DNA of 64,000 bases from contig OZ004581.1 of the NCBI GenBank assembly GCA_963924555.1, positions 5,557,338 to 5,621,337 of the forward strand. Direction: 5' to 3'. Position numbers and translations under genes: made by a program. How positions within the stretch are numbered: the stretch's first letter is position 1; each line of letters opens with the position of its first letter. This DNA comes from Crambe crambe (taxonomy: Eukaryota > Porifera > Demospongiae > Poecilosclerida > Crambeidae). This document shows positions 1 through 56,700 of this stretch, in pieces. The notes below the pieces were generated by a model. That model saw nothing but the letters and a program-made list of their open reading frames with translations. It was not told the origin of the DNA and ran no database searches.

Positions 1-1394
1 TGTGGATTCAGGATTGGTTTAGAATGCAACAGTTATTTGTGCTATAATAATATTTCCAATTCATTATGCTGGTATTTTCCTTGAGGAGCGCCCTCCTTTA
101 ATTTTTCTTCCAGAAAAGGTAGAGTAAGTTTAGATTTTCAATGTGATGGGGGCCCTCTTTGAATATTTAAAATGAGTAGCCAGTCGTACTCTGATTTTTA
201 TAATAGCATCTTGTGATGAAGAAGATTAAAGCCATGCAATGGCAGCTCAAAAGACATTCATAGCTATATCAGCTAGCTATTACCATACATACATACCCCT
301 TTAGGCATCCATTACATACATAAGATGCATAGCTATATGCAAACTTCAGCATCAACCACATCATGATGATTCCATGTAACAGACATTGGTCTAGTCACAT
401 GATAGGTCTTGAAGATCAACCTCTCTTGGAAGATTATACCCAGTGCTCACCACCTTGTGGGCTCACCCATACAAATTTGTTTGTTTATTGATTTATTGCA
501 GCTATAGCTAATTATTATTAGAACATAGTTCAGTGGTTTTACAGTGTTACTTAGAAAGACAGCAGGTTTTCTAAGTGCCTAACAGTAGGTTTTCTAAGAC
601 CTACTGTTAAGCACTTAGAAAACCTACTGTTAGGCATTATCTTGTTTATGTTACTATAGCTACTAATGTGATCACCAAGGAGATGTGAAAAAAGTATTGA
701 TGTTAGGCATTATCTTGTTTATGTTACTATAGCTACTAATGTGATCACCAAGGAGATGTGAAAAAGTATTAACCGTTTCTTTTTGTGTTTTGTATAAGTA
801 AATAATGATCATGGAATGATTAAGATAGCTACATACATAGCTATAATAATTATGATCGAAGTTTGTTCTATCTAAGTTACTGAGCTGATCCAGCATTGTA
901 GTTGTTGAAGTTAATTCATCCGTTTCTTCATTTGAAGGTTCACTGCTTGCTACATGTACAATTACAAGCTACCTGGCCCTTGCTGGTTCCTGCATGTGCA
1001 GGAGCAGGTGCTGCCACCTTCAATTCACCACCAAACAAGACGGGTCACTGCAGCGTTCAGAAATAGAGAAGGGGTACTCGTCAGTGCTAATATCTCTGTT
1101 ATTTACGTCGTAGAATCTTAGCATTATAGCTCTAGCTAGCTATCGCTCCTGCTGTGAAGATATGGAAAGTTTGCTGTTGCTAGGTAGTTTTTGCTATGTT
1201 CTAAATAAGTTAGACAGCTCGACCAACGGGATCTAAGTTATTTAGACACCCTCAGGCCCTTAGTAGCACCCTCGCTTCGCTCGAGATGCTACAGCCTCAG
1301 GCCTTCGGGTGTCTAAATAACTTAGATCCCTCGGTCTCGCTGTCTAACTATTATTTAGCTAATTATCTTTATTCATTGATTATTATTTATTAAG
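1..1394. other. Intron-like sequence at the left edge; no supported gene
   Basis: It holds a local duplication (TTAGGCATTATCTTGTTTATG...GATCACCAAGGAGATGTGAAA at 630-690 and 703-765). A possible 36-nt exon (898-935, LLKLIHPFLHLK, tgtag before and gttcac after) is too weak to call. Confidence 0.5.
1190..1370. repeat. Palindromic repeat, TCTAAATAA...TTATTTAGA
   Basis: GATCTAAGTTATTTAGACACCC at 1230 is repeated in reverse at about 1307-1330, with a GC-rich centre of GCCTCAGGCC and AGCGAGGG-like blocks. Related stretches are at 2985-3080 and 62700-62815. Confidence 0.7.
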
Positions 1395-2522
1395 GTATCC
1401 GACTTATTAAGAAATCTGCAATCAGATCATAACTCATTGGAAATCTTTCAAAAGCTTTGTTGTGTAAAGGAATTGCTGACTGAGGTAGGTTATTAAGGTT
1501 AATGCCCTTGTGAAATTATTATTACTTGATTATTATGAAATCTTCACAGCTAATTAATTCATACTCAGTTTCTGCAAACTGGCCCAAATTAATAAGCAAG
1601 TAGTTGAATCTCTTTTCTCCCAGTGCTTGAGCCTACGTACAGTGGAACCTTCATAATCAGGACCTCCATAATAAGGAAACCTCCACACAAATTTGATCCT
1701 AATCTAAATACTCACATGTGCAGGATTATCATAGGTATTCAGATTGCCAGCCTCACTGCAATGGCTGAAAAATTGCCTATGGTAGTAGTAATAACTGAGA
1801 GCTTCTGAGTGCTAGTAAGAGCAGAAGCACTATAATTCCTATGAAGCTCATAGCTAATCCCTAGGATTATTCTTGAAGAGTAGCTAATCTTGTTTACTTG
1901 TAATCTCTATAATGATACAGGATGCAATGAGGTCATACATGAAGGAATATGAAGTAACATTACGAGATTCATTTGGGGATGACATGTGGAAGAAATCTTT
2001 AATAATTCTTAAACGAAAGTAAGTATCAATATTTTCTAGCATAATCATAACTGTGATAGCTAACTCTGTACTTAAAATTTGTGTTCATGAAAGTAATTTA
2101 TCAAGTTTACAGCGTTTTTATTTGACTGGGATTTTGGCAGTTCAGCAGTCTTGCAAACTGATACTTGTAGTTCTTTGAATATGGTTAAAAGTCTTAAGAC
2201 AGAGGGAATACATGCATGCTAAAATTGACCGGACTGCACAGATCGCCAAATAAATTCACTGTCAATCTCATTTAATTTAATTTCTTATATAAGGATATCA
2301 GGTTGCTCAGATGTTGCTAAAGATTTGTTCCTGAAGATTATGAATGCTTATAAGGAGAAAGATTCCAGAATTCAGCAGATATTTTTCCAACAAATACTCA
2401 AAATCATTGATCCTGACCACTTTTTCAGTGATGATATAAAAGACTGGTTGAAGGGGGAAATTGAGACTTATATTGCCAATTATTCTTCTACAATTTCTAA
2501 TGGAGATATCTTTCGTATAATG
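1395..2522 (+). other. RNF213: RNF213-like gene: first three recognisable exons (N-terminal arm)
   Basis: Exons 1395-1484 (starts VSDLLRNLQ, ends before gtaggt), 1921-2018 (DAMRSYMKEY..., ends before gtaagt) and 2294-2522 (ISGCSDVAKDLF..., ends before gttagt). Phases are 0, 0-to-2 and 1-nt completion, and they join without a stop. The acceptor of the third exon is at 2293, because the later AG at 2301 gives a stop within a few codons. The residues are helical and charged with no motif, as expected for the divergent N-terminal stalk of this family. The start codon of the gene is upstream of the window. Confidence 0.7.
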
Positions 2523-4285
2523 GTTAGTCAATAATGGTGTGAATGGGTTTAAGTGGGCCAGTAAAATCTTGATGGTCACTTCTACTGTACACTAAGATTT
2601 CACCCCACACAACAGCTTAGCTGTGCTGAATCTGTAGCCTCATATGAAACAACCCACCTAACTACACTTATTTGCCATATTGGACTAGTAGCTTCTTAGC
2701 ATAATAACTTCTTTCCTACTGTCAGAAGCTCCTAACTTGAAGAACGAATACCTTCATGTGCCAAGACTCAAGTATGAAGAGCAGAGTATCATTACAGCTA
2801 TACTTAAAGAAATATGGCCCCTCTGATTCATGCAGATGAAAAGTCTGAAGAGCAAACCTGAGAGGTCACTGCGTAAATAGTCATCTCTCAGGCTCTGTAT
2901 AGCAGGAGAATAATTTCACAATGCAGATCTTTGCATCTACTTGCAATAATAGCCCAGGGTGCATAGACACTGAGATTGAAGAATCTACGGCATTAAGAGA
3001 CACGAAGGCCTAGTAGTGACCTCGCTGTGCTTGGTCACTATTAAGGGCCTGAGGGTCTCTTAAATGCTGTAGGTCCTACTTGTCGAAAAACTAACTAAGA
3101 ACATAGCTGCTAACCGTTTTCAAGTAGCTAGCTGAGTAGCTAGCTAGCTAGCTGGCTGGCTTCAGAATAACATCACATGGATTTTAGAGAGTAACTAGCA
3201 CTTCCAAGCTGGGTTTCTCTAGCTGGCTTACAGCACACTGGCATACCCAGCTTGATTTACTTGCACTCTCATGACAGTCCAAGATGAGATATAAAGGGAG
3301 TGAAGTAGGAGTAGTTAGCTCGCAGTTGGTGATGTGTAAGGGTTACTTGACTGAAATTCACTCTCTTGTTTCTGAACTTTTTTTAATCGCACATAGCCAT
3401 CCCTACTTTTCTTTTTTATTTAGAATAAGTATTTTCCCTTTACTTGTTCATCATCTTTTTTGATGTAATGCTATTATAGGCAACTGGATGCTATCAAAAG
3501 TTAAAGTTCATGTATTGTAGCTATGTAGTTCATTGGAGATTTCATCATAATATTGTATGAGCCGAAATGAATCTGATGAGGAAGATCTATACAGTTTATA
3601 ATAAGATTGCCATTGACCCTATGTAATTTTGTATATTAAGGCCTTTACTGATATGTACCTGATAACTGTTGCATCATTTATAACCACAGTAGTGCCTAGG
3701 GTTTATGTTCTGAGTAGCGAGAGACCAACATCACGAGATAAGCCGATGACAGATTCGTGTCAGTTGTGAGGTCAAAGTTCAAGAATCATGTGTACGGGGG
3801 CAGGTGCTAATCCTTTAGCTATCTTTAACTCAACATGTTCGAAACTAGCATGTCATTTTCCAACTCACTAGCTTTCAACCTACAACGTGGCAGACATTTT
3901 TATGCCCCGCCCCATACACGTGATTCTTGGACCTTGACCTCACAAATGACTGTCCTTAGCTATCTCTCTTGATGTTGGTCTCTTGATGCTCAGAGCATAA
4001 ACCCTAGGCACTAGTCTGGTTATGAATCAAGGCTTGATGTAACAGTATATCAGTAAAGGCCTAAAAAAATTATATCAGAGAGTGCAGTAACACTCTTTAT
4101 GTAGGGTTAGTCCGGAATGGGTGTGGCTTCTCTCATTAGAACAATACAAACTAGGCTCTTTGGATCTCTTCTATTCTTGCTACAGGCTCAATTAAACTGC
4201 TAATGTAGAAGATGTTATGTCCGCTCAAACTCCTCCAGAACAGCGTTAACAATCAGCACCAGCCACCGTCTAAATCTAATTATTC

Positions 4286-4320
<35 letters not shown>

Positions 4321-7300
4321 CCATCTTCTTTGATGCTGTAACTTCATGATCCTTTCACAACTTGTACAGTTATAACCACATATAAACGATACAATGTCAG
4401 CCATATTAAAATGACATCATTTATGTGCACATCTGTTACGGCCGGCGCACATGGCAAAGATAATCAGGTCATATACAAGTGAACAAACAAGTGAAGGGAA
4501 AAAAATTTATGCTGAATAAAAAGGCCATGTAGGGTTAGTCTGTACTTTTACCTGTAGCAGTTTCTGTGAACAAACATCAAACTATGCTGCCTTCGATAAT
4601 AATCCCTACATCACTGCCTAAACCAAGCAGAACACTTTTACACTGACATGAATTAAAGTAGCTTGGTGGGAGGCATTGATGTAGGGATTATTATTGAAGG
4701 CAGCATAGTTTGATGTTTGTTCACAGAAACTGCTACAGGTAAAAGTACAGACTAACCCTACACGGCCTTAAAATTTTTCCCTTCACTTGTTGGTTAATGG
4801 CAACTGCATAGATAGCATTAGCTAGTCATTCCAGATCAGATTTATTTCCTCATACAATATTATGATGAAACCTCCAATGAACTACATAGCTACAACAGAT
4901 ACTTTATGAAATAATTATTGTGCACTGGAGAAAAAAACTGGTGTTTGACTGACTTTTAGTAGAAGCTTGATAAAAAAGACCAAAATATCAGCCTCTAGAT
5001 AGTGCTCTATATTGTTTATGTGAACATGTTGCAAAGTAGAGTTTGTTGTCTTATGACCTTTGACCTGCCATCCTTACATAGAGAAATTACTGTGTGCATA
5101 AGTACTTTTAATTATCTTTATTTCAAACTTGCAAGAGCCAGTTATTATTGTTTTTAATTTTGCAGATAATGATATTTTCAAGGACAGATGAAAAGGTATT
5201 TTGAAGTTTAATAGTCATTGTAGCTTGTACTCAAATCCATGCACTGAATTTACAATTTGGTTTTGTACGAATTTCAGTTATGTCAGCTACTTGTATGCAA
5301 TCATAGCAACATTAAAGTATAACATATAATACTCGAATTAAATAGCGAGTAAACAAAACCTGACGAAGAATAAAGCCACAATAGAGTTAGCTGTAACAGC
5401 TTGCTGTGGTTTTAGTTTACCATCGAAACTCTCTTACATTATAAACTGCACAAGTATGTAGCAAACTTCTAGCAATAACACACTAGACTGGACAATGGCT
5501 TAATAAAAAAGTTATGGATATGCTATAATTGTATTGTAACTAACCTTTATGATATGCATACGTATAGCTAAATAGTGGGATAACTAGGTAACATATTCAA
5601 TTGGTGAGTGAAGTAGTTGGTGAAAGTCATTTGTACTTTGATTTCTTAGGCTAAGATATTGCTGTCAGTTGGGTGGTGGTGCAGCTACATACACAGGAAG
5701 CTGAGCTGTATAGCTTACCACAAGCAATTAGAAAACCAAGTGCCTACAATTCACTTATGTAGATAAGCCTAACACCTCTGCTGTAGAAAGAAATAAACTC
5801 TAGCTGTTTGTTGTTAAGTGTTGTGGGTATGTGGTGTCAAAGGTCAAAAGAACTTATGTGATGTATGTATTGAAATCCCAGTTTGCATGAATAAGGGGAA
5901 ACTCACTTCATTTGCCAATAATCTTGAGTTCAAAACTGATAAGAATTTAGATAACCCACAGAATTTCCTACTTATTCTGTGGTATGTATTATTCAACTTG
6001 ATATTTGATATACAGGTGCTTACTGCTATCCAAGAAGTAATCATGACTCTCATTCTGAAGGTATTCCAATAGATTTCATGATTTCAGGATCATGGAAGTT
6101 ACTGTATTTTTTTTTTTTAAATCTGGGATAGCTACTAGGGCAATGTGCAACATTTGACAGTGAGCAAATTAGCTATACCCTCCAACTTGTTCGTGCTTAA
6201 GTTCCTTAGATTATATAAGTCTAATTCATGCATGTCCATGCATGACCTGAGAGTCAGCTCACTCGCTCACAGTGAGTGAGCTTACATCTACAGTACATGG
6301 TGGAAATGTATGTAGTGTTTGGTTTGATTGAGGCTGCAGTAAATAATCCATATAGATCTTGGAGCCATCCTTAATTATTATTAACCTTTTGTGATCACTA
6401 GTTCCCATCCTTTTCTTTGTATAAGTAGTAGCTCAATGTAAAGTTTTGAATTGCTTGGATGCTCATTTGAAATTATAATGCTCGACATTGACCAATCTAT
6501 TGATGATAATTATCATTTTTTGGAGTCGTGGACATGATTCAGAGCTCAATAGTTTTCCTGATAACTCTAATTCTATTACGGGCTTGCCATTCTGAGCTGA
6601 TAAATGACTACCACAGCCCAGCAAAATTATTTCAACTCACTGTGAGGAGTCAGATTGAGCTGGGCTCGTTTAAAAAGTGGATTCACATCAACATCTCCCC
6701 CTTCTCAAATGGACCTCATTAGATCTGAAACATTTCTTAAGTTTTGATTTACTCTTCAGATAACTTTCGAACTCATTTATTTGCATGAAAAAAAAATGCT
6801 AAAACTAGTATACCTTTTAATTATACGATTTTAATTTCTTCAGGATATAGTTACTCCTGCTACCCTTAAAGGAGACTCTCCCCAGGAGTATTTCAATATG
6901 ATTATGCAGCTGCAGGACAATTATCCTGATTACCAGAATAGAATCCTACTGATGAACTTGACCATTAAATGCATTGAAATGTGTTCAGAATTACTGAAGC
7001 ACCACTGGGAGAATAGACCTATGAAAGGGCACTTAGATCATGTGCTTCAATTCGATAAGGTCACCGGTACATTGGTTCATGTATATCAGAGGACACTTCA
7101 CTCCAACTGTAATATTCCATTCGATGAAACAGTTAAACAATGGATCACTTTGATTGAAGAATTCTTTGATCGTTGGTTAGCAAAATCCAGAGAACAGGAG
7201 ATTACCTATGAAGAATGTTTTGGATTTATTTGCATTATAAAAGAATTGAAGGAAGTTTACACTTTACTGAAAGGAAAAGATTTATATAAAGAGTCAGAAT

Positions 7301-44730: not shown

Positions 44731-47700
44731 GACCAGTTAAAAATGGCTATTTTAGAAGTCGTTATAAAATGATACTGCTTTGTTCTCTGGTCTTTATACT
44801 TGAATCCTAACACATTGAAGGTGTTCTGTCTTCAAGTTAGGAGTTGCTGACTGCAGGAGGTAAGTATTCTGGAGTTATGAAAGAAAATATTAAGTACTAC
44901 TCCAATGGAGCATCCGTGCCATCCCTACTTAGAGAGTACTATCATACTCTCTGATAATCAATCGAGGGGCCATGCATACATGTATAATAGAGGCCTATTG
45001 CACTATAATTATTAGCTATTATTAATTTTCTTCTACTCAGATTCAGAAGTCAGATTTAAAGGTAATGAGAGTCCTTCCAAAAAGAAATGCTGGAAATACA
45101 TATACAGAAAAATGCCAAGAATTGTGAAGTCAAGCAAGATTTTGCAAAAGCTCTATATAAGGTATAATGTTACTACTGTGACTTAATAAATTTACTCAAT
45201 TTAAGAACTAGTGTAGAATTTAAAACAACCAATTTGAATAAGCAATTGGTTTACTCAAACATGTTTCTTAAACTTCAGTTGAATGATATGTCCACACCAA
45301 TATAATTATCAGCTGAAATTACACTAGCTAAGAATTATGGGACTGTCACATTCATAATTAAGAATAATCAACTAATGATCAGTGTAAAGACTAAAGTGAA
45401 GTATTCTCCAACTTGTTTGTGCTAATTCAATTCACTAGCTATTATTTGCTGTTCCTGCATACATACGTAGGAAGCTTTAACGCTTGCTATAAAGATAAGC
45501 CTAATGCCAGCAATCCACTGTAAGATAAAGGGTGCTGACATGACATGACACTTATGACAGCGAGTGAGCAAATAAAGTAGCTGATAGCTCCAACTTATTT
45601 TGTGCTTCAACGTTAGAGACAGAGTCATGTTGCATACATATGAAGCTGTAATACTTATCACAAAATACTTAGATAGTAAGTGAAGTACCTGTACAATCCA
45701 TTTAGATAAGCCTCTCACCACTGCGCCTATACAATTATACAATCGGAGCACTTCAGTACATATGCCTGCATGGGGCATTTTGGAGTGCAGACCTACTTAG
45801 ATATTATATCTACAATTTCAACGAGTCATGACTTGAAAGCTCACTGAATTGCTGGTTATTCAATACCTTTTGTTAAAATATTCCTAGTCACCTTCCACTG
45901 TAAATTAATTATAATTGTAAAAACTAGAGTAAAAGCTAATCACAAACTGGATTGTAACTTGAAATATACTAGTCATGTATATAGTTCAAATCAAACTTTG
46001 CTAGAAAAGAAATCATACCGAATTGTATAGATACCTGTCTCGACGTTTCAACTTCTTGGAAGAATTTCCTGGATACAATTATAACTCTGGACTAGGAAGT
46101 GAGATGGATACAAATTCTGTTGCTCTTGGTCAAACTTTGGTGAACAGCATGATTGAAGAAGTGACTCAAATGTGTGATCAGCAAGCTTGGGCCAGCAAAG
46201 TGTATCAGCAGGTTTGTGGGTATATGTTGTAATAATATGTCCCTTGGCTGGCTAGTTAACAAAGGATCTCAGATAATAGCAGGCTAAACTTACATGTATG
46301 ATCAGAACATAGAGATTGTGTAATATTTTTAATCCTAAAAACTCTGCATCAATGAATTACTTCACAGTTCTTCCTATGTCAAAGATGAATGATCTTTGAT
46401 CTCAGAAAAACCCTTGCAGTCAGAGTGTTTTTTTTTTTAAATTTTGTTCAAGACTCGACCACATACTAAGTAGAAAAAAACAGGCAAAAAATCTTATTCA
46501 TAGTGTATGATTTTTTTACATTACAGATGTGTCACTGAGAGAAGCTGTCGAGGCAATGATAATTAAAAATATTATTTTGCTAGTAAGTAAACAGGTGAAA
46601 GGTCAGGAAGCACAACTCTACTCTCTCACTAGTGTCCCAAGTCTCAGATTATTGAAGCTGGAAGGCCATAACCTGATAAAAGATAGGAAGCATTTGCATA
46701 CTGATTATGACCTAGCTGCTTTTGAGTATCATGTTAGCTATTAATACCGATGATAGTTAAAGCTGACTAGATACTCACATAGAATCTCATCTCTGTCTAC
46801 AATCAAAGCTTGCCACTACAGGTAGGTGAGAAAGCTAAAGAACTCTGCTTGCACGTGTTCTTAGATTGTATGGTAAAGATCGTCAGCAAGTACAACCTGA
46901 TGCGCAGTCCAAAAACGAAGTAGAGTTAGGTGCTCTAAGTTAATAGCGTGAAGAAGGACAAAGGTACTTTAGAGGTCCGTGATGGCAGCGAAGCTCTGTG
47001 GTACGCAGGGAAGAAATACGCTTTGATTATTTACATTACATTATGTATTCATTTTTTTACACAGCTCATATATGACTTCAAGGATGGATGTGGAACATTT
47101 GGTTTCATATGTGTGGACTTGGACAAAGTCCCTAAGGAAACACTAGAAGCTTTATGTTTGATTGGAGCCAAAATACCTGATGATATGAGGTACAGTACAA
47201 TCATGAGTGTAGGAACACAGTACGTTTAAAATCACTATGATATCATAATAGACAGGTTTGTGGTTTTAATAGTTGTTCAGTTCAGAGCTCAACTGAATTT
47301 GGCAGGAGGAATAATTATGAGCCATTCCAGTCCTGCAGTAAGATTTTCCACCATAGCAGGCCTTAGCCTCTGTGTATGTTTCTATCTAGGGGAAAGCAGG
47401 AAATTAGCTGCCTCAAGAATGTGCACCCTTACTTAATTACTGTTGCTGCATGCATGTGAGGATAGCCCAGGATGGAATGCACATAGGAAGCATGAGGCAT
47501 AGTGGTGCAAATGTAGTCTCTGTCCCAGCCCCCTAGCTCACAGCACTGGATGTATTGCATCACCAGCACGCGAGGAAGGGGTCTGGTGGTCGGGCTGCAG
47601 CAGTTACGGAACTGCGCCGGAATTCAGGCGCACCCAATGATTAGATTTCCATTTTACCACACATTAACTTTCGCGCGAAAAGGGGTGTGGTAGGTGAAAC

Positions 47701-50700
47701 TTGATAATAATGGAGAAGAGGCCAGATGATAAGCAAGCTGCTGTGGATGAAGCAATAAAGTATGCCTGTTCTAAAATGAAAATAAAAGAACTCTTACCTG
47801 AGCAAGATAAGTGTGTTAGAGCATTCTTGGAAGGGAAGGATGTCTTCATTTGTCTGCCAACTGGGTACGGAAAATCTTTGTGCTTTGCTATATTATTTGA
47901 CTACCTACGTGGACATAGAGATCATTTGTCAATAGTGATTTGTGTGGCCCCTTTGCTATCACTTATGGAAGATCAATACAATCGCTTTAAGGATTATTTT
48001 TCTGTTGTAGTTGTAAGTAGTAGTATTTACCAGCAAGTTTCTATTCAGGAGGTATTTGATGGAAATGCTCAGCTTATTTACATTAGTCCAGAAGCCCTGT
48101 TGACAAATGAGCAATACAGAGAGATGCTCCAATCCCAGATTTATCAGGATAATCTTGTTGCTTTCATTGTGGATGAGGCACACACTGTAAAGAGATGGTG
48201 AGTTATTTTAATGCAGTGATAGAGCTTGCTAGGCTCCAAATGCTGTTTTATCTTCCATAGGGGTGATAGATTCCGGGTTGAATTTGCTCATCTTGGTGAG
48301 ATACGGAGCTTGATCCCACAGCATGTACGTGTAATGGCACTCACAGCCACCGCTACAAGGAGTACTAGAAAAGCTGTGATTGAGCGTCTGAGTATGATTC
48401 ACCCAACAATTATATCAATCACACCTAACAAGTCTAACGTTATCTACAAAGTTATTGAAAAACGCCCTCTACAAGATGTAGTTGGTCCTATTGCAAGGCA
48501 ACTCAAGATTCATCACATGAAGACTGACAAAACACTCATATATTGCAGGTACTGTAAGGAAGTTGTTGACTTTTATGAGGAATTTAAGACACAGCTTGGC
48601 ATAAACTTCACATCACCCCCTGGTTTTCTTGATTTTGTGAAGTATCGACTTGTAGACATGTATATGAGTGTAACAGTGGCCTCAGTAAAGGAACAAATAG
48701 TTAAATCGTTCTGTGATCCGTCTGGTAACTTGCGTGTTGTTATATGCACTGTTGCCTTTGGCATGGGGTTAGATTGCCCAAATGTTCGTAAAGTTATGCA
48801 TTGGGGACCACCCACTGATTTGGAAGGTTACATTCAAGAGTCTGGTAGGGGTGGAGAAATGTGTGAATCTACTATTATGTATCATCAGTCTGATCAAGTG
48901 CACACCACAAAACTTATGGTGGAGTATTGTGAAAATAATAGTAGTTGCCGCCGACATAAACTATTTAAAGATTTTGATGATTATGACAGTTTAAAATTAC
49001 CACTATCGGCCTGTAAGTGCTGTGATATCTGCAGCAAAACATGTAAATGTAATGAGTGTCAATGTTAGTTCAGCTCCTAAGGTTGTTAGCTACATGGTAT
49101 CTTGAATGTCCTTAATTTTTCTTTTATGTACTCCTTCATTTGTTCTTCATCAATTCTGTCAATTAAGCTTCCATGAAATTTTGGGAATGTAGTGTGTTTT
49201 CGGCCAGGGACTAGTTTGAAAATAGCATCTTGTACTAGTTCATTCACTATCTTTTTGAGGTCATCTTCAAATTTGGCTTCTGAGTGAGTGGAAGAATGAG
49301 GTGTGACACTAGAAGATTTGGAAAAGGACTGAATTAATCTGGATAAGGGAGCGATGCATTTACCAATTCGCATAACTGCTGTTGGTGCTATATTTGCTTT
49401 CAGGTTTGCAATAGCTGTCTTACAAATACGGTTTAAGTGTTCCATATGAAGGTCCATAGGTATATTACAACCTGGCTTTCCAGCTGTGTTTATACAGCGA
49501 GACCAAATCAGTTGCTGAGCTAGCCTGGGTGGTAGCAGAATATAATATTGTGCTAGTAAGTGAAGACCTGCAAGGGCATAATTTTTTTTACCGGAGGCTT
49601 TAAACACTGGTAGTAGAAACTTCCAACACTGGATGATTCGAAATCCATCAGCTTCCCGAATAGCATCATGAAATTCAGCATAAAGCATTGAAAGAGACAA
49701 GACTTCTTTAGCATACTCGAGGACTGAATCTTGGGCTGAATCTTCTGTGTCTTCACTGAGCAAGCGTAGGTTGATGTACTCACTTACAATTTTCCGGGAA
49801 AACTTCATTATCATGTCATTCTTTTCTTCAGAGTTCTTGTTAGGGTCAATACATTCACTCTGAAGAAGCTCTTTTGCTGCAGCTACGATATGGCCAATTC
49901 CAACAACTTCCATGAAGTCTTCGCAAGCATTCAGATTGTGCTTTGGCTTGGTTGGTAAATTCTTCCTGTTAATCAAATTGCGCAGCTGGTGCAAAGTGCC
50001 ACCATCCATGCTTGAAGTTTTTCGATACAGTCTCTTCCAGAAGACCTTAATAAAAGGAATAATAAAGCTTGAATCTGAATAACATGATCAACTCACCCCA
50101 GCTAAGCATTGCTTCGCATGCCAATCTTCAATCACTGGGATTAAACCACTGAGCTTATCAGTCTCATCCTCAGAATTGCTCCTCATTCTCTGAGCACCTT
50201 CAGCTCTCACCTTAGTCACCTGGTCTCCTCCAAATAAAATGTGATGGAAATAATCATGATGAACCTCCTCATATTCACCACTTTTTCCAGGAATTGGCAC
50301 AGAGCTTGTTTTTCTGACATGTGGCACACAATTATGTAAGGATTCCATTATTGCCACCATTTCCTCAATGATGTTCTCATTCTTGAGTTGTACTCTTAGC
50401 GGTACCTGAACACAGCACATGAGATATCAATGCGCTATATACACAAAACCCAATGAAACACACTCACATAAATCAATACTTACCACATGTGATTTTTGTG
50501 CCATTTCACTGGAATATTTATGTGGAATATGATCCACCACAGCACCTTCAAACTCTGCAAACTCTGGTGTATGCTTTATAAGCATTCGAGCTATCAAAAT
50601 AGAGAAGTTCGTAGAAATCTGTTTTGGTTCAGAAGAACAAGGCAGGTAAGTAATTCAGCTGGATACAGGGAAGGATTGAGTTGTGATGGCTCTGCTGACA

Positions 50701-53700
50701 AAAATGAGAAATCAATCCTGTCACGAACAGCATATGCATGAAAGTAGTGGAGACTTTGACTACGTTGATGCAAAGTTTCATGCCTAGGTTTGACAGTCTT
50801 GTCTATATTGTCTCCAACAATCTTGAATCCAAACCAACCTTGAGGCAACATATCGCAACCTGGCTCTGTTGGAAAAGGCTGTGATGTTGTAGGCAGACCC
50901 TGACTTTCAACAGAAGTTGAGGAAGGAGAGGAATGCACTGATGATAAAGGAGAGAATGGAGGTGGAGATGGAAAAGATGAGGATAGTGGTGGTGAGGGTA
51001 AAAATAAAGGTATTGGAGACAGAGGCTGTGGAGATGAGGGACATTCAGAAGGTGATGGTGGAGAGAAGGGCAATTCTGTGTCACATTCAGTAACTTGAAT
51101 TTGTTGCAAAGGTGAGAAGGGCAGTGACAACTGAGGTGGTGGTTGTAGATCCTGGAAAATATTGCTATTATAATGGATATTGCTATTATAATGGATTTAA
51201 CTATTGTGTTTGTAGCCTACCAGGTATGATTTTAGGCTTCCAGTTAGCACATCTTGCCATTCCAATACAACTTGATCATACCCTTCACCAAGGCGATCTA
51301 GAAGGTGATGAACCTGGCTGGAGTCAACAGTAATCATACACCTTTGCAGCATTTGATGCACCTATGTATACATGTAATAGTGGGTGCCAAGTTGTTATAA
51401 TTACCAACATCTAACCTGTGAACCTGCATGTCCTGCATGAAGTAACAAGGAAATGGCAGATTGCACGTGACACATTTTTTGGTTCCGTAATTTGCTAATT
51501 AATGCAGCACATACACATATTATAGGTTTCTTGTCAGGCTTTGTTTTAACAGGTAGGCAGTTAGTCAGTATTGATGACAAGGTCGGTGCTTTGTTTGAAA
51601 TTTCCATCCAAATAGACTCCCAGCTAAAGTGCATTAATGATATGTCAGATGTATCACGCAGCATTGCGCGATAATTGTCAGAACACAATGACTTGACCTC
51701 ATGATAACACATTCTTCCGACTTTTTTCAAAATTTGACCTTGTAATGCCTTATTGCTGGGATTAAGGACCATGGCTGCTAGAGACCCCTTGTTTCCCCTT
51801 CCCAAAATTCGTCCAATCTTCTTGTGTGAAGGGGTTAAATTGAACGTTTTGGGCTTTTCGTAGCCTACAACAACCTATTGTAAGTAGCAAGCATACACCA
51901 GTAGTAAGAAGTCGTGTTCCAGTGTATCCACTTACAGCTACATTTGGAGAGTTGGTATTGTCAGCTGAAGCATTGAAGTCCAATCTCCTCTTACCCACTA
52001 TGCAAGGTCGTTTTGGAGGTGGAGAGCATTCAGGCTCCAACAAAGCATCTAAAATAGTTTAAGTACTCTGCTGTTACCCTAGTTATATTATAGCTACCTG
52101 ACATGCCTTATGTATAATGGTTAATAGCTTATCTGAATCGAGAAATAGCTCTGTGGTCTTGTATGATTTCAACTCTGAATGTAATGGGAATGCTCTCAAC
52201 ACCATGTGTTGAACCAATCTTGCCCCTCAATTTGATGTCCAGTGTCTGCAGTTCATTTTGAATCTCTTGAACTTGCTTTAACTCTTTATAGCATGGATGT
52301 TTACAGATCCAGGGTCCACCATTAGCTATTGGAGAGATCATTGCAGGGTTTATCCTTCCCTGGGAGATATACTTCTCTAGAACAGGTAGCACTTCCTTGT
52401 TAGCACTACTGTGGAGAACCCTGCGCTCTCTGTGATCAGTGAGCTCTTTCCCACAGACCCTGCAAGAAAGCTGCCTCATTGCTGCTGCATGCAATAACTT
52501 TTTCCCCGCGGCAAAATGAACACGCATGCGCATAATTATTGAATTTAAGTAAAATTCCAAACATTCCTCAGTTTCGTGACCGCTGCAGCCCGACCACCAG
52601 ACCCCTTCCTCGCGTGCTGGTGATGCAATACATCCAGTGCTGTGAGCTAGGGGGCTGGGACAGAGACTAGTGCAAATGTGAATGATAGGTAGCAGAAATA
52701 CAGAATAAGATAAAATGCATATAGAGTAGCTAGCATGTAATACTGGCACTGATGTAGAAGTGAGCAATAGCATGCAGTAGCTGAAAAAAGTTGGTAACCT
52801 TGACCGGAAGGATGAAGCTATAGCTGTTGAATGGCTTGCCATTCCCTGTACAGATGCACTCAAAAACCTGGTCCAGAGATATAGAGGATAAGCAGTGCTT
52901 GAGCTATGATAGAGTTTGACACTTGAACTGCTGCTGAGCCTCTGAGAAATCTAGATGTTCTGGAGCCGGGATGTAGAAGTTCTGCTGGTGGTCGAAGAAA
53001 CTTAACCTCTCCCACCAGTAGATCCCCTTCCAGATTAGGAATCTTGATGTAGAGAGGCTGCTCATGTACATATGGTACAGGCTTGGAGCAGGATAAAAAA
53101 TAGATGAGCAGGAAAAAGAATGCCTATATGACAGCTGCTTTGTTATACCTTGTGTAATTAATGTGAGCCTCCATTTGCTATGAATATGCACTTACAAAGA
53201 CCCTCCCATGGGAGTGGCCCCTTGATTAAAGATGCTCATTACAACTGGTAAATTATACCAGGAAATAGTTCGTACATCAAAATTTTACACCATGAATATT
53301 TTGTCCTATTGACATAGACCGAATGTGTGATCTACTCTTAAAATAAAATTAAATCTTTGTGCTATTCATAGGGTAATGAAACTAAGAGAGAATCTGGATT
53401 CTTGTCTGTCTCGAGCTCTGGGTGTACCACTAGTACAGGATCGTCTGAAGCTGATTGATGACTCTGATTATGTTCTAACCCTTGATTATGCATCTAAAAT
53501 GCTAAATATTCATGAAAGACGGAAGTGTGGTATTCCTGTGATTATTGAAGGGGAAACTGGTGTTGGAAAGACTGCTCTGATTCAAATGCTCTCGAAATTA
53601 TGGAACTACAAGTATGCAAATGAGCTGAATCTACTCAAAGAGACAGTCCTTGATATGGTACAAAGAGGTAAATTTAATTCTTATATGTTTGCCATACATT

Positions 53701-56700
53701 GACTATCTAATTGTACGAGGTTGAAATAATGGCTATTAAATTAGTATCTTAACAATCAGTATGATGAAGAACCTGCCCTCATAATTGTTTTAACAAGTAA
53801 AGGAGGAAAATGTATGCTAAATAAAAAAGGCCATGTAGGGTTAGCCTGTACTTTTACCTATAGCAGTTTCTGTGAACAAACATCAAAACTATGTTGCCTT
53901 CCCTACATCACTGCCTCCCACCAAGCTGCATGCATTAATTCATGTCAGTGTAAAAGTGTTCTGCTTGGTTTTGGTAGTGATGTAGGGATTATTATTAAAG
54001 GCAACATAGTTATGATGTTCATTCACAGGTATAAGTACAGACTAACCCTACATGGCCTTTTCATTTAGCATATTTTTTCCCCTTCACTTGTTAATTTTTG
54101 CCTCGGCACCGAAGTGCCGAGGCGCAGTGCTGGAAGCGACTATGATCGGCGATGGTGATACGTTTCACGCGCACGCGCAATGATGCACGATGATGCGTAT
54201 CGAGCACGTGCATTAATTTAGCTCTGGCTAGCTAGACAAAGTACTAAGGACAAACAGACAGGCTCAGCTCAGGCTCGCAGTTACTACGCGATAACTCTAG
54301 TACTGATGATTCTTGGCCGTCTTTGCCAACAAATCAAGCCCATTATCACATGCAGAGAACTGACTAAAAGACAGCAGTGAACAAAAACAACAGAGATTGC
54401 AAGGTACACGAACTAGTGCTTCGTTTGAAGGAGAGCCATGGTGAAGGAGAATCTCAGAACTAAGACTTTGAGGCTTCCAAACAATGAGAGAATCCAGTAC
54501 ACATACTTCAATCAAGCTATGCTGAGAATAACCATTAAACGACAGTTGAACAGCAAGAATAGTGTGTAAATACTAATCTTACTACAATAGCCATGTTGCT
54601 CAGTGTGCTTTATTTGGAACTCTCCACAGAAAAGAAGCTGAGAGAAATATTTTGGCAACATTTTGTAGAAACATTTGACCCCACAACCCCCCACACTTTT
54701 CATTCATTATGCCCATGAGTGTTCAGCCAATCATCCTTGTAGGACTCTGGTTTCAAGCCGGTGATCCTCAGTGTATCTTTATCGTCTCTTATATACCACT
54801 GTCATGTCGTATTCACTATAAAGCATTTAAAATTAAAATTAAATAGAGGTTGCACTTAAGTGCCGAGGCATTCCTAGTCTTTTTAAAAGACGAACTTGTT
54901 ATATAACCTTTACTTACTGTGTCACTGACTCATATTTAGTTATTAATGACCTCTTTACCACGCACGTGGCAGGTGCACATGTGATCATGACAGATACGCA
55001 TGCTGTCATTTAATTTTTAAAATAGTTAACATTGTATCGTTTATAATGAAAAGTTGTTTGATATGAGTGTGGATAACGATGGTAAAAGCACAATATGTGG
55101 TTATGTAACTGTACAAGTTGATATGAATTTGATTGCTGTAAGTAAAAGGATCATGAAATAGTCTTGCTAGGCCAGACCACATTTTTTTCGCGGGATGGTA
55201 GAAAAATAAGGGTCTGGTCAAACTCGCATAGCAACTAAAAAAGAAGTTAAATAATTAGTGAGCATGGCTAAGATCGCTTTGCACGTGAAGTGCAGGAAAA
55301 GAAATGGCTTTCTGTTATTTAGCTTTCATGCATTCAAATCTAAGCTAATGGCATCTGTTAGCTCCATCACTGCTAGCTAGCTAGCTAGTCCAGCCCACTA
55401 GCTAGCATTGACATAATCGACACGCACGAGTTTATTTATTGACCACACCCAGTTATAACCACATTGCATCCTGCTTGGCCAGTAAAAATTGCTGACAATG
55501 TTGCTATGCAAGTTTGACCAGACCCTTATTTTCTACTGCCCTGCAAAAAAATATGTGGTCTAGCCTAGTGAGACTAATCATGAAGTTACAGCCATCAAAG
55601 AAGATGAATCTAATGATGAATGAATTAGATTTAGACAGCGCTAGTGCCAATTGTTGATGCTGTTCTGGAGGAGTTTAAGCGGACATATCATCATCTTTTG
55701 AATTGTTTTCCAGATGTAAACATTTTTATTGAGCCTGTAGCAAGAATAGAAGAGATACAGAGAGTCTAGTTTTATATTGTTCTAATGACCCATTCCAGAC
55801 TAACCCTACATAGAGAGTGCTACCACACTCTCCGATAATAATTATGTAACTTCATTCTTGTAATCTTTATCACTAGATGATAGTGCATACAAGAAGCAAA
55901 TTCTGGATATCATGAAATCAGGAAAACACATTACAAGTGATGAGCTTTATATGTTTCTGAATTCAAACCAAAACTGGATCTCAACAGTGAAGAGTTGTTT
56001 TAAGAATATTGATCCAAAAATATGTACTATTGCAAGTTTAGCAATTTATCAGAGTGATGAGAATGAACTAATGAGATATATGGATCAAGTTTTTCATTTA
56101 TTGGAGGAATGTAACAGTGAACAAGAGGTAATAAAGTAGTGAAAGGTTTTGATAGGCACATTCATTGATCCCAGGTAGCAATATTAATTTTATTATTTTT
56201 TTTATAATATAGTGTTCAGCATTACTGTTATCTGTTCTGAATGCTGAAATGATTGACATGTTTTTCAAGCTGGATGTTCATGCAGGTACACAATTAATTA
56301 CGATACGTAGCTAAATGAACACATGCAACATTATATTGGGCTATAAGATAGTTTATCAGAACACATACTCGACGATTAGCCTTGTCCCCGGGCGATTCCA
56401 CACACAATAATAATTAGCTTGTGGAAGGCCTGGTACGCGACCACACGTGAGCTTGTAATCGACCTAGAACCGACTTAATTGGGCGTGGCAGTATATTAAA
56501 TTCCAGTAACTCTGCCTACGCTTTTTAATCACTGGATAGAGCCTTGAGCTGGCCGAGCCTATACGGTAGGCCGCAAAAAAAGTTCCCGTTCCGTCCACGT
56601 AGGACTGGCATTGAACGCCTTGACCGTTGTAGTTTCTACACAGTCACCCGTGTGTTTAATTTTCTACACCGTTAACATCAAGCATTGCGCGCCTGTGCCC

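Follow-up and report, generated by a model that had tools for sequence, protein, structure and literature searches.

A DNA transposon of the sponge Crambe crambe, very probably of the AcademH type, pairs a RecQ-type helicase with a DUF6589 protein

Does a mobile element that joins a RecQ-type helicase to a protein of the DUF6589 family represent a transposon superfamily of its own, and which of the two proteins would move it? These questions are raised by a 64,000-nucleotide stretch of contig OZ004581.1 of the sponge Crambe crambe (assembly GCA_963924555.1, positions 5,557,338 to 5,621,337, forward strand), hereafter the window, in which positions 47514-52669 form a transposon of 5156 bp with two convergent genes. 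A first-pass annotation of the window had proposed that DUF6589 is the transposase, that the helicase is its partner, and that the pair may define a new superfamily. We conclude with high confidence that the element is an AcademH-type DNA transposon with DUF6589 as its putative Academ DDE transposase.

On re-reading the sequence, the borders of the element, its perfect 88-bp inverted termini (the first 88 bases are the exact reverse complement of the last 88), and the identical 9-bp target-site duplications (TSDs) all held as first annotated, and the inverted arms could be followed over 101 nt at 97% identity. An exact search of the genome for the 20-base terminus gave 58 hits (28 forward, 30 reverse), against none for its letter-reversed control, which shows that the ends are not due to chance. 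An empty insertion site was not found elsewhere in the genome, where only the two flanks of the element itself were matched. The interior carries a RecQ-type helicase gene on the forward strand and a multi-exon DUF6589 gene on the reverse strand, in convergent order; a Pfam scan of element open reading frames (ORFs) of at least 80 aa recognised no third gene, in agreement with the description of a self-contained transposon with two genes.

The helicase gene (47710-49068) starts with ATG at 47710 and, with splicing predicted from the sequence, would comprise two exons and one 63-bp intron and encode a product of 431 aa. The SF2 helicase core (DEAD, PF00270; Helicase_C, PF00271) and the RecQ zinc-binding domain (RecQ_Zn_bind, PF16124) each score above their Pfam cut-offs, which bears out the helicase identity. 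The best sequence match of exon 2 in the PDB is BLM (E 1.5e-21). All three domains are shared with the RecQ helicases BLM, WRN, RecQ1, and RecQ5, from which the protein of the element differs in being short, transposon-borne, and, exon by exon, under the NCBIfam recQ_fam cut-off (83.0 and 120.8 bits, cut-off 219.8 bits).

The second gene had been named DUF6589 in the first-pass annotation, and the name proved correct: PF20231 matches the reverse strand at 49089-50087 (123 bits) and 50088-50426 (39 bits), with a cut-off of 27. Pfam lists the function of this family as unknown. The gene is split into several exons, the borders of which are estimates only, and its reading frame changes between ~50690 and ~50645, a region that is spanned on both sides by one ORF in the relatives L029, L019, and L025. 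Fifty-five GT/GC-AG combinations can be written for introns bridging this position, nearly all of which are very short or delete residues that are aligned in the relatives. The frame change near 50650 may thus be a genuine frameshift in a damaged copy, a mistake in the assembly, or a sign that the gene is spliced differently, with an intron here. A Pfam search for DUF6589 gave no match in 14 control genomes, and no DUF6589 was found in phage records.

The pairing of the two genes recurs in the same genome. The Pfam DUF6589 profile yielded 110 genome matches (81 merged loci), and a search with helicase exon 2 yielded 64 matches at E 1e-10 (54 merged loci). Forty of the 81 DUF6589 loci face 40 of the 54 helicase loci in convergent order across 203-1065 bp, whereas chance alone would place a helicase less than 6 kb from only 0.37 DUF6589 loci. 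The recurring pairs that were tested have the TAGTCT termini and 9-bp duplications that the first-pass annotation had suggested looking for. One more DUF6589 locus, the 41st with a helicase inside 6 kb, belongs to a nested element of a different type, and at 14 helicase loci no DUF6589 partner is present at this distance. By type, the 81 DUF6589 loci divide into 18 of a single-gene type and 63 others, the latter consisting of the 40 paired loci, one near a weaker helicase match, and 22 without a match. Six of these 22 loci cluster on contig C16 at ~4.36-4.55 Mb.

Twenty-seven copies of the window family, including the window's own, were tested at both flanks; another six, each with an exact match at one end, are outside this sample. 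Perfect 9-bp duplications are present in 24 copies, perfect 8-bp duplications in two, and one copy has none. Two copies on C20 share their flanks and were counted as one insertion. These copies (C20:3223078 and C20:3231639, L114-L117) are ~8.6 kb apart, with identical left 20 bases and 19 of 20 identical right bases, pointing to local duplication after insertion. Short derivatives of 83-1297 bp account for 21 of the 27 copies, and five others measure 2.1-5.5 kb and align internally with the window element only in pieces. A second family, which starts with TAGTCTCGCGCG and has inverted repeats of ~72 bp, encodes a helicase that is 46-47% identical to the window helicase, and at least seven of its copies carry both genes. 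All five second-family copies tested (C20, C19, two on C11, and C5; four of them read by hand) have 9-bp duplications, four matching at 9/9 positions and one at 8/9. Further copies of this family are present on C13 and C16.

The 29 duplications listed have no strong consensus and none contains TTAA, which bears on the alternative of a KolobokH-like element, i.e. a Kolobok transposase accompanied by a RecQ helicase. Kolobok elements insert at TTAA. Kolobok lineages with RecQ do exist: in the excerpts of PMC9587614, KolobokH of fungi combines a Kolobok transposase with a RecQ helicase, and a red-algal Kolobok bears RecQ on the complementary strand. The combination of a DDD/E transposase, putative in the window element, with a RecQ helicase is a likeness between KolobokH, as excerpted there, and the window element. 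The two differ in the family of the transposase, Pfam giving DUF6589 and no other transposase family on the scanned pieces, and in the 9-bp duplications found here in place of a TTAA target. We therefore consider a KolobokH-like element exceedingly improbable.

DUF6589 is also encoded by elements with a single gene. On contig C5, a 6.6-kb element (~338-6953 of locus L122, C5:6045240-6052270) has one ORF of 1861 aa, CAGTCGTTACGCAACC termini, and the 4-bp duplication TTGT. DUF6589 is located in the middle of this ORF (57 bits, cut-off 27), and its C-terminal part looks like an XPG-type nuclease by eye, although Pfam reports no nuclease. Against solved structures, the C-terminal part gave one match (E 0.66), and a PDB sequence search found no structure resembling the single-gene DUF6589 core at E 1. 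The termini of the single-gene elements are unlike those of the helicase-bearing elements and are inverted at 17 of 20 bases. Two of the three copies tested have a 4-bp duplication (TTGT on C5 and GTTC on C18; the C18 and C3 flanks were read by hand). A genome search with the single-gene core, in which 64 of 555 candidates were scored, yielded at least 96 matches in at least 51 merged loci. Among these at least 51 loci listed, the nested one on C5 is alone in lying less than 6 kb from a window-type helicase. The L122 element is probably an AcademX element.

The region C5:6045200-6057459 is a three-level nest with a separate duplication at each level (9, 9, and 4 bp). The outer level is a second-family element with both genes and with ATTGCCGTG as its duplication, the middle level a ~380-bp derivative that belongs to a third family and is flanked by the 9-bp duplication GGTGTCACG, and the inner level the 6.6-kb single-gene element, which interrupts this derivative. 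We rejected a reading of the C5 insertion as a single-gene element with helicase-family termini and a 9-bp duplication, because the 9 bp belong to the interrupted ~380-bp derivative. The third family consists of non-autonomous elements of ~360-380 bp with TAGTCTGGCATAGCACC termini, for example at C6:4608698-4609077 (L134, L135; 9-bp duplication); the duplication of the sister copy on C6 is GGTGGCAGG. The TAGTCTGGCATAGCACC terminus has at least 55 genome matches (40 of 292 candidates scored) and is shared by the near-identical two-gene copies L047-L050.

Helicases drive Helitrons, and the transposase function of DUF6589 is putative, so the helicase might itself be the mobilising enzyme in a Helitron-like manner, with DUF6589 as cargo or as a DNA-binding accessory. 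Helitrons, however, are not known to have inverted repeats or duplications of fixed length. Moreover, DUF6589 occurs without such a helicase, the single exception within 6 kb among the single-gene loci listed being the nested one, and the helicase-free elements still have 4-bp duplications in most copies tested. A Helitron-like mode of movement is accordingly rated as extremely unlikely. DUF6589 is common to the helicase-bearing elements and to the single-gene elements that lack such a helicase, which argues for DUF6589 as the transposase and supports this part of the first-pass proposal, with catalysis itself as a prediction. Helicase-free DUF6589, which the first-pass annotation had named as something that would tell against its proposal, does occur in this sister lineage of at least 51 loci; those tested are still transposons with inverted ends and fit AcademX.

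Terminal inverted repeats are a defining trait of the AcademH lineage and are shared by the window element (88 bp perfect) and the second family (~72 bp). The title of Kojima's 2020 paper on AcademH reportedly places this group in animals and fungi. According to the excerpted text of PMC10045372, AcademH makes TSDs of 9 or 10 bp and AcademX TSDs of 3 or 4 bp, a difference that seems tied to the presence of a helicase in AcademH versus a nuclease in AcademX. The window element resembles AcademH, as known from such descriptions, in encoding a helicase beside a putative transposase, an arrangement found in 40 convergent pairs in this genome, and in its 9-bp duplication, which is within the 9-10 bp of AcademH; the same two characters distinguish it from AcademX as excerpted there. 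The single-gene elements of the L122 type fit the 3-4-bp duplications of AcademX, which is a sister lineage in the same superfamily. A helicase with 9 bp, alongside a sister lineage without helicase and with 4 bp, thus matches the published AcademH/AcademX pattern, and by this match the Academ transposase is most likely the DUF6589 protein. Academ is included among the superfamilies with a DDD/E transposase in the excerpts of PMC9587614, and an Academ DDE/D profile is employed in those of PMC10294476. In the excerpted PMC10799480, fungal DEAD and Helicase_C domains are assigned to AcademH, KolobokH, or Helitron elements, and AcademH is low-copy in several fungal groups. No paper in the literature searched dealt with Academ and XPG together with transposons and TSDs.

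The first-pass annotation had gone further in suggesting a new superfamily with its own helicase, unrelated to Academ. Such a superfamily would accord with the unknown function given for DUF6589 and with the Academ identity being set here by description and not by sequence. However, the helicase, the 9-bp duplication, and the helicase-free 4-bp sister lineage fit AcademH and AcademX as excerpted from PMC10045372, where AcademH is already described, and RecQ Helicase was listed in Academ by 2013 (PMC3627910, in an excerpt citing Kapitonov et al.). The source of AcademH is Kojima 2020, Mob DNA 11:15, as cited in the excerpted reference lists of PMC12210899, PMC8290104, and PMC9970103. A new superfamily is therefore very unlikely, and the element is best regarded as a further example of the described AcademH class and not as a new transposon class.

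Within DUF6589, D, D, and E residues are candidates for DDE catalysis (Table 1). Of 30 DUF6589 loci fetched with 1.5 kb flank each, 18 contain DN[IVL][DT] in an ORF of 150 aa or more, and 23 contain E[HN][LM][NV] in such an ORF. The ten helicase-type rows of alignment A3 all read VGDN, VFDN, or WGDN; the next residue is I, V, or L, and then comes D. The motif D-L-x-x-E-H-x-N is present in 10 of the 11 rows of alignment A2; the exception is the row of the preceding exon from the window, which lacks this region and is misplaced. In the single-gene type, where rows were not selected by motif, [VA]DN[IL]D, GD, PGD, and DEAHEM are common to all four sequences. An hhalign profile comparison of the two DUF6589 types puts the EH and DEAHEM stretches in register. 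The two single-gene sequences in A3 are out of register with the other rows, so that this alignment is no evidence for homology of the first D.

Several observations weigh against the assignment to AcademH with DUF6589 as transposase. The Academ identity was deduced from architecture and duplication length and not from alignment to reference sequences, and DUF6589 was not mentioned in the literature searched, a point that also favours the new superfamily. The sole full-length copy found of the window family, a lower-bound count, has an unexplained frame change in DUF6589, and of the 63 DUF6589 loci that are not of the single-gene type, 22 lack a helicase match in 6 kb. Target-site duplications are absent from the derivative L112 of the window family and from the single-gene copy on C3. 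The helicase-type alignment rows were partly selected by the motifs described above, so that motif conservation is no independent test, and the two DUF6589 types show only weak similarity to each other by hhalign (probability 22%, E 9e-4), with one shared Pfam model as the main link between these types.

In the AcademH-type element as we picture it, the DUF6589 transposase would bind the long TAGTCTC... inverted repeats, excise the element, and insert it at a target with strand cuts staggered by 9 bp, from which host repair would produce the 9-bp duplication. The RecQ-type helicase would most likely assist, either at the ends or the target, where it would unwind or remodel the DNA, or in repair and replication after the cut, and the short end-only derivatives would have been moved in trans. 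A more tentative idea, which we hold to be possible but rather doubtful, is that the partner enzyme, or an accompanying change of the transposase, sets the spacing between the two strand cuts (9 bp with RecQ and 4 bp without).

Table 1. Features of the two-gene element and its flanks; positions are those of the window.
Feature	Position	Strand	Remarks
Left target-site duplication GTGCAAATG, 9 bp	47505..47513		Identical to right, 9/9
Left terminal inverted repeat	47514..47614	+	88 bp perfect, 101 bp at 97%
Helicase exon 1	47710..48197	+	PF00270 DEAD, 73 bits; best PDB matches RecQ5, RecQ1
Helicase intron, 63 bp, GT-AG	48198..48260	+	Predicted from sequence
Helicase exon 2	48261..49068	+	Helicase_C and RecQ_Zn_bind above cut-off; best PDB matches BLM, RecQ, WRN
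DUF6589 last exon	49086..50045	-	PF20231 154-410; MEHLNR with candidate catalytic E; start approximate
DUF6589 preceding exon	50097..50411	-	PF20231 68-152; GGDQ and EDWH as second-D candidates; ends approximate
DUF6589 stretch with VGDNIDK (candidate first D)	50484..51160	-	Holds frame change; ends approximate
DUF6589 upstream coding stretch	51220..51361	-	Conserved in L025
DUF6589 upstream coding stretch	51413..51862	-	Partial matches in L009, L025, L016, L015
Possible further DUF6589 exon	51935..52058	-	Basis: ORF and splice donor only
Possible first DUF6589 exon	52132..52518	-	No Pfam family above cut-off
Right terminal inverted repeat	52569..52669	-	Pairs with left arm
Right target-site duplication GTGCAAATG, 9 bp	52670..52678		Identical to left, 9/9

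Downstream of the element, an ORF at 53331-53702 has sequence matches in the PDB (E 5.6e-15 and 4.4e-8) that liken it to an AAA module of midasin or RNF213.

The analysis adds to the AcademH-type elements a family with one full element and more than 20 short derivatives, together with sister families, in one genome. It also suggests a function for the Pfam family DUF6589, very likely that of the Academ transposase, which aids annotation. As the genome of C. crambe holds a helicase-bearing system with 9-bp duplications and a single-gene system with 4-bp duplications side by side, it offers material on how the partner enzyme relates to the length of the target-site duplication.

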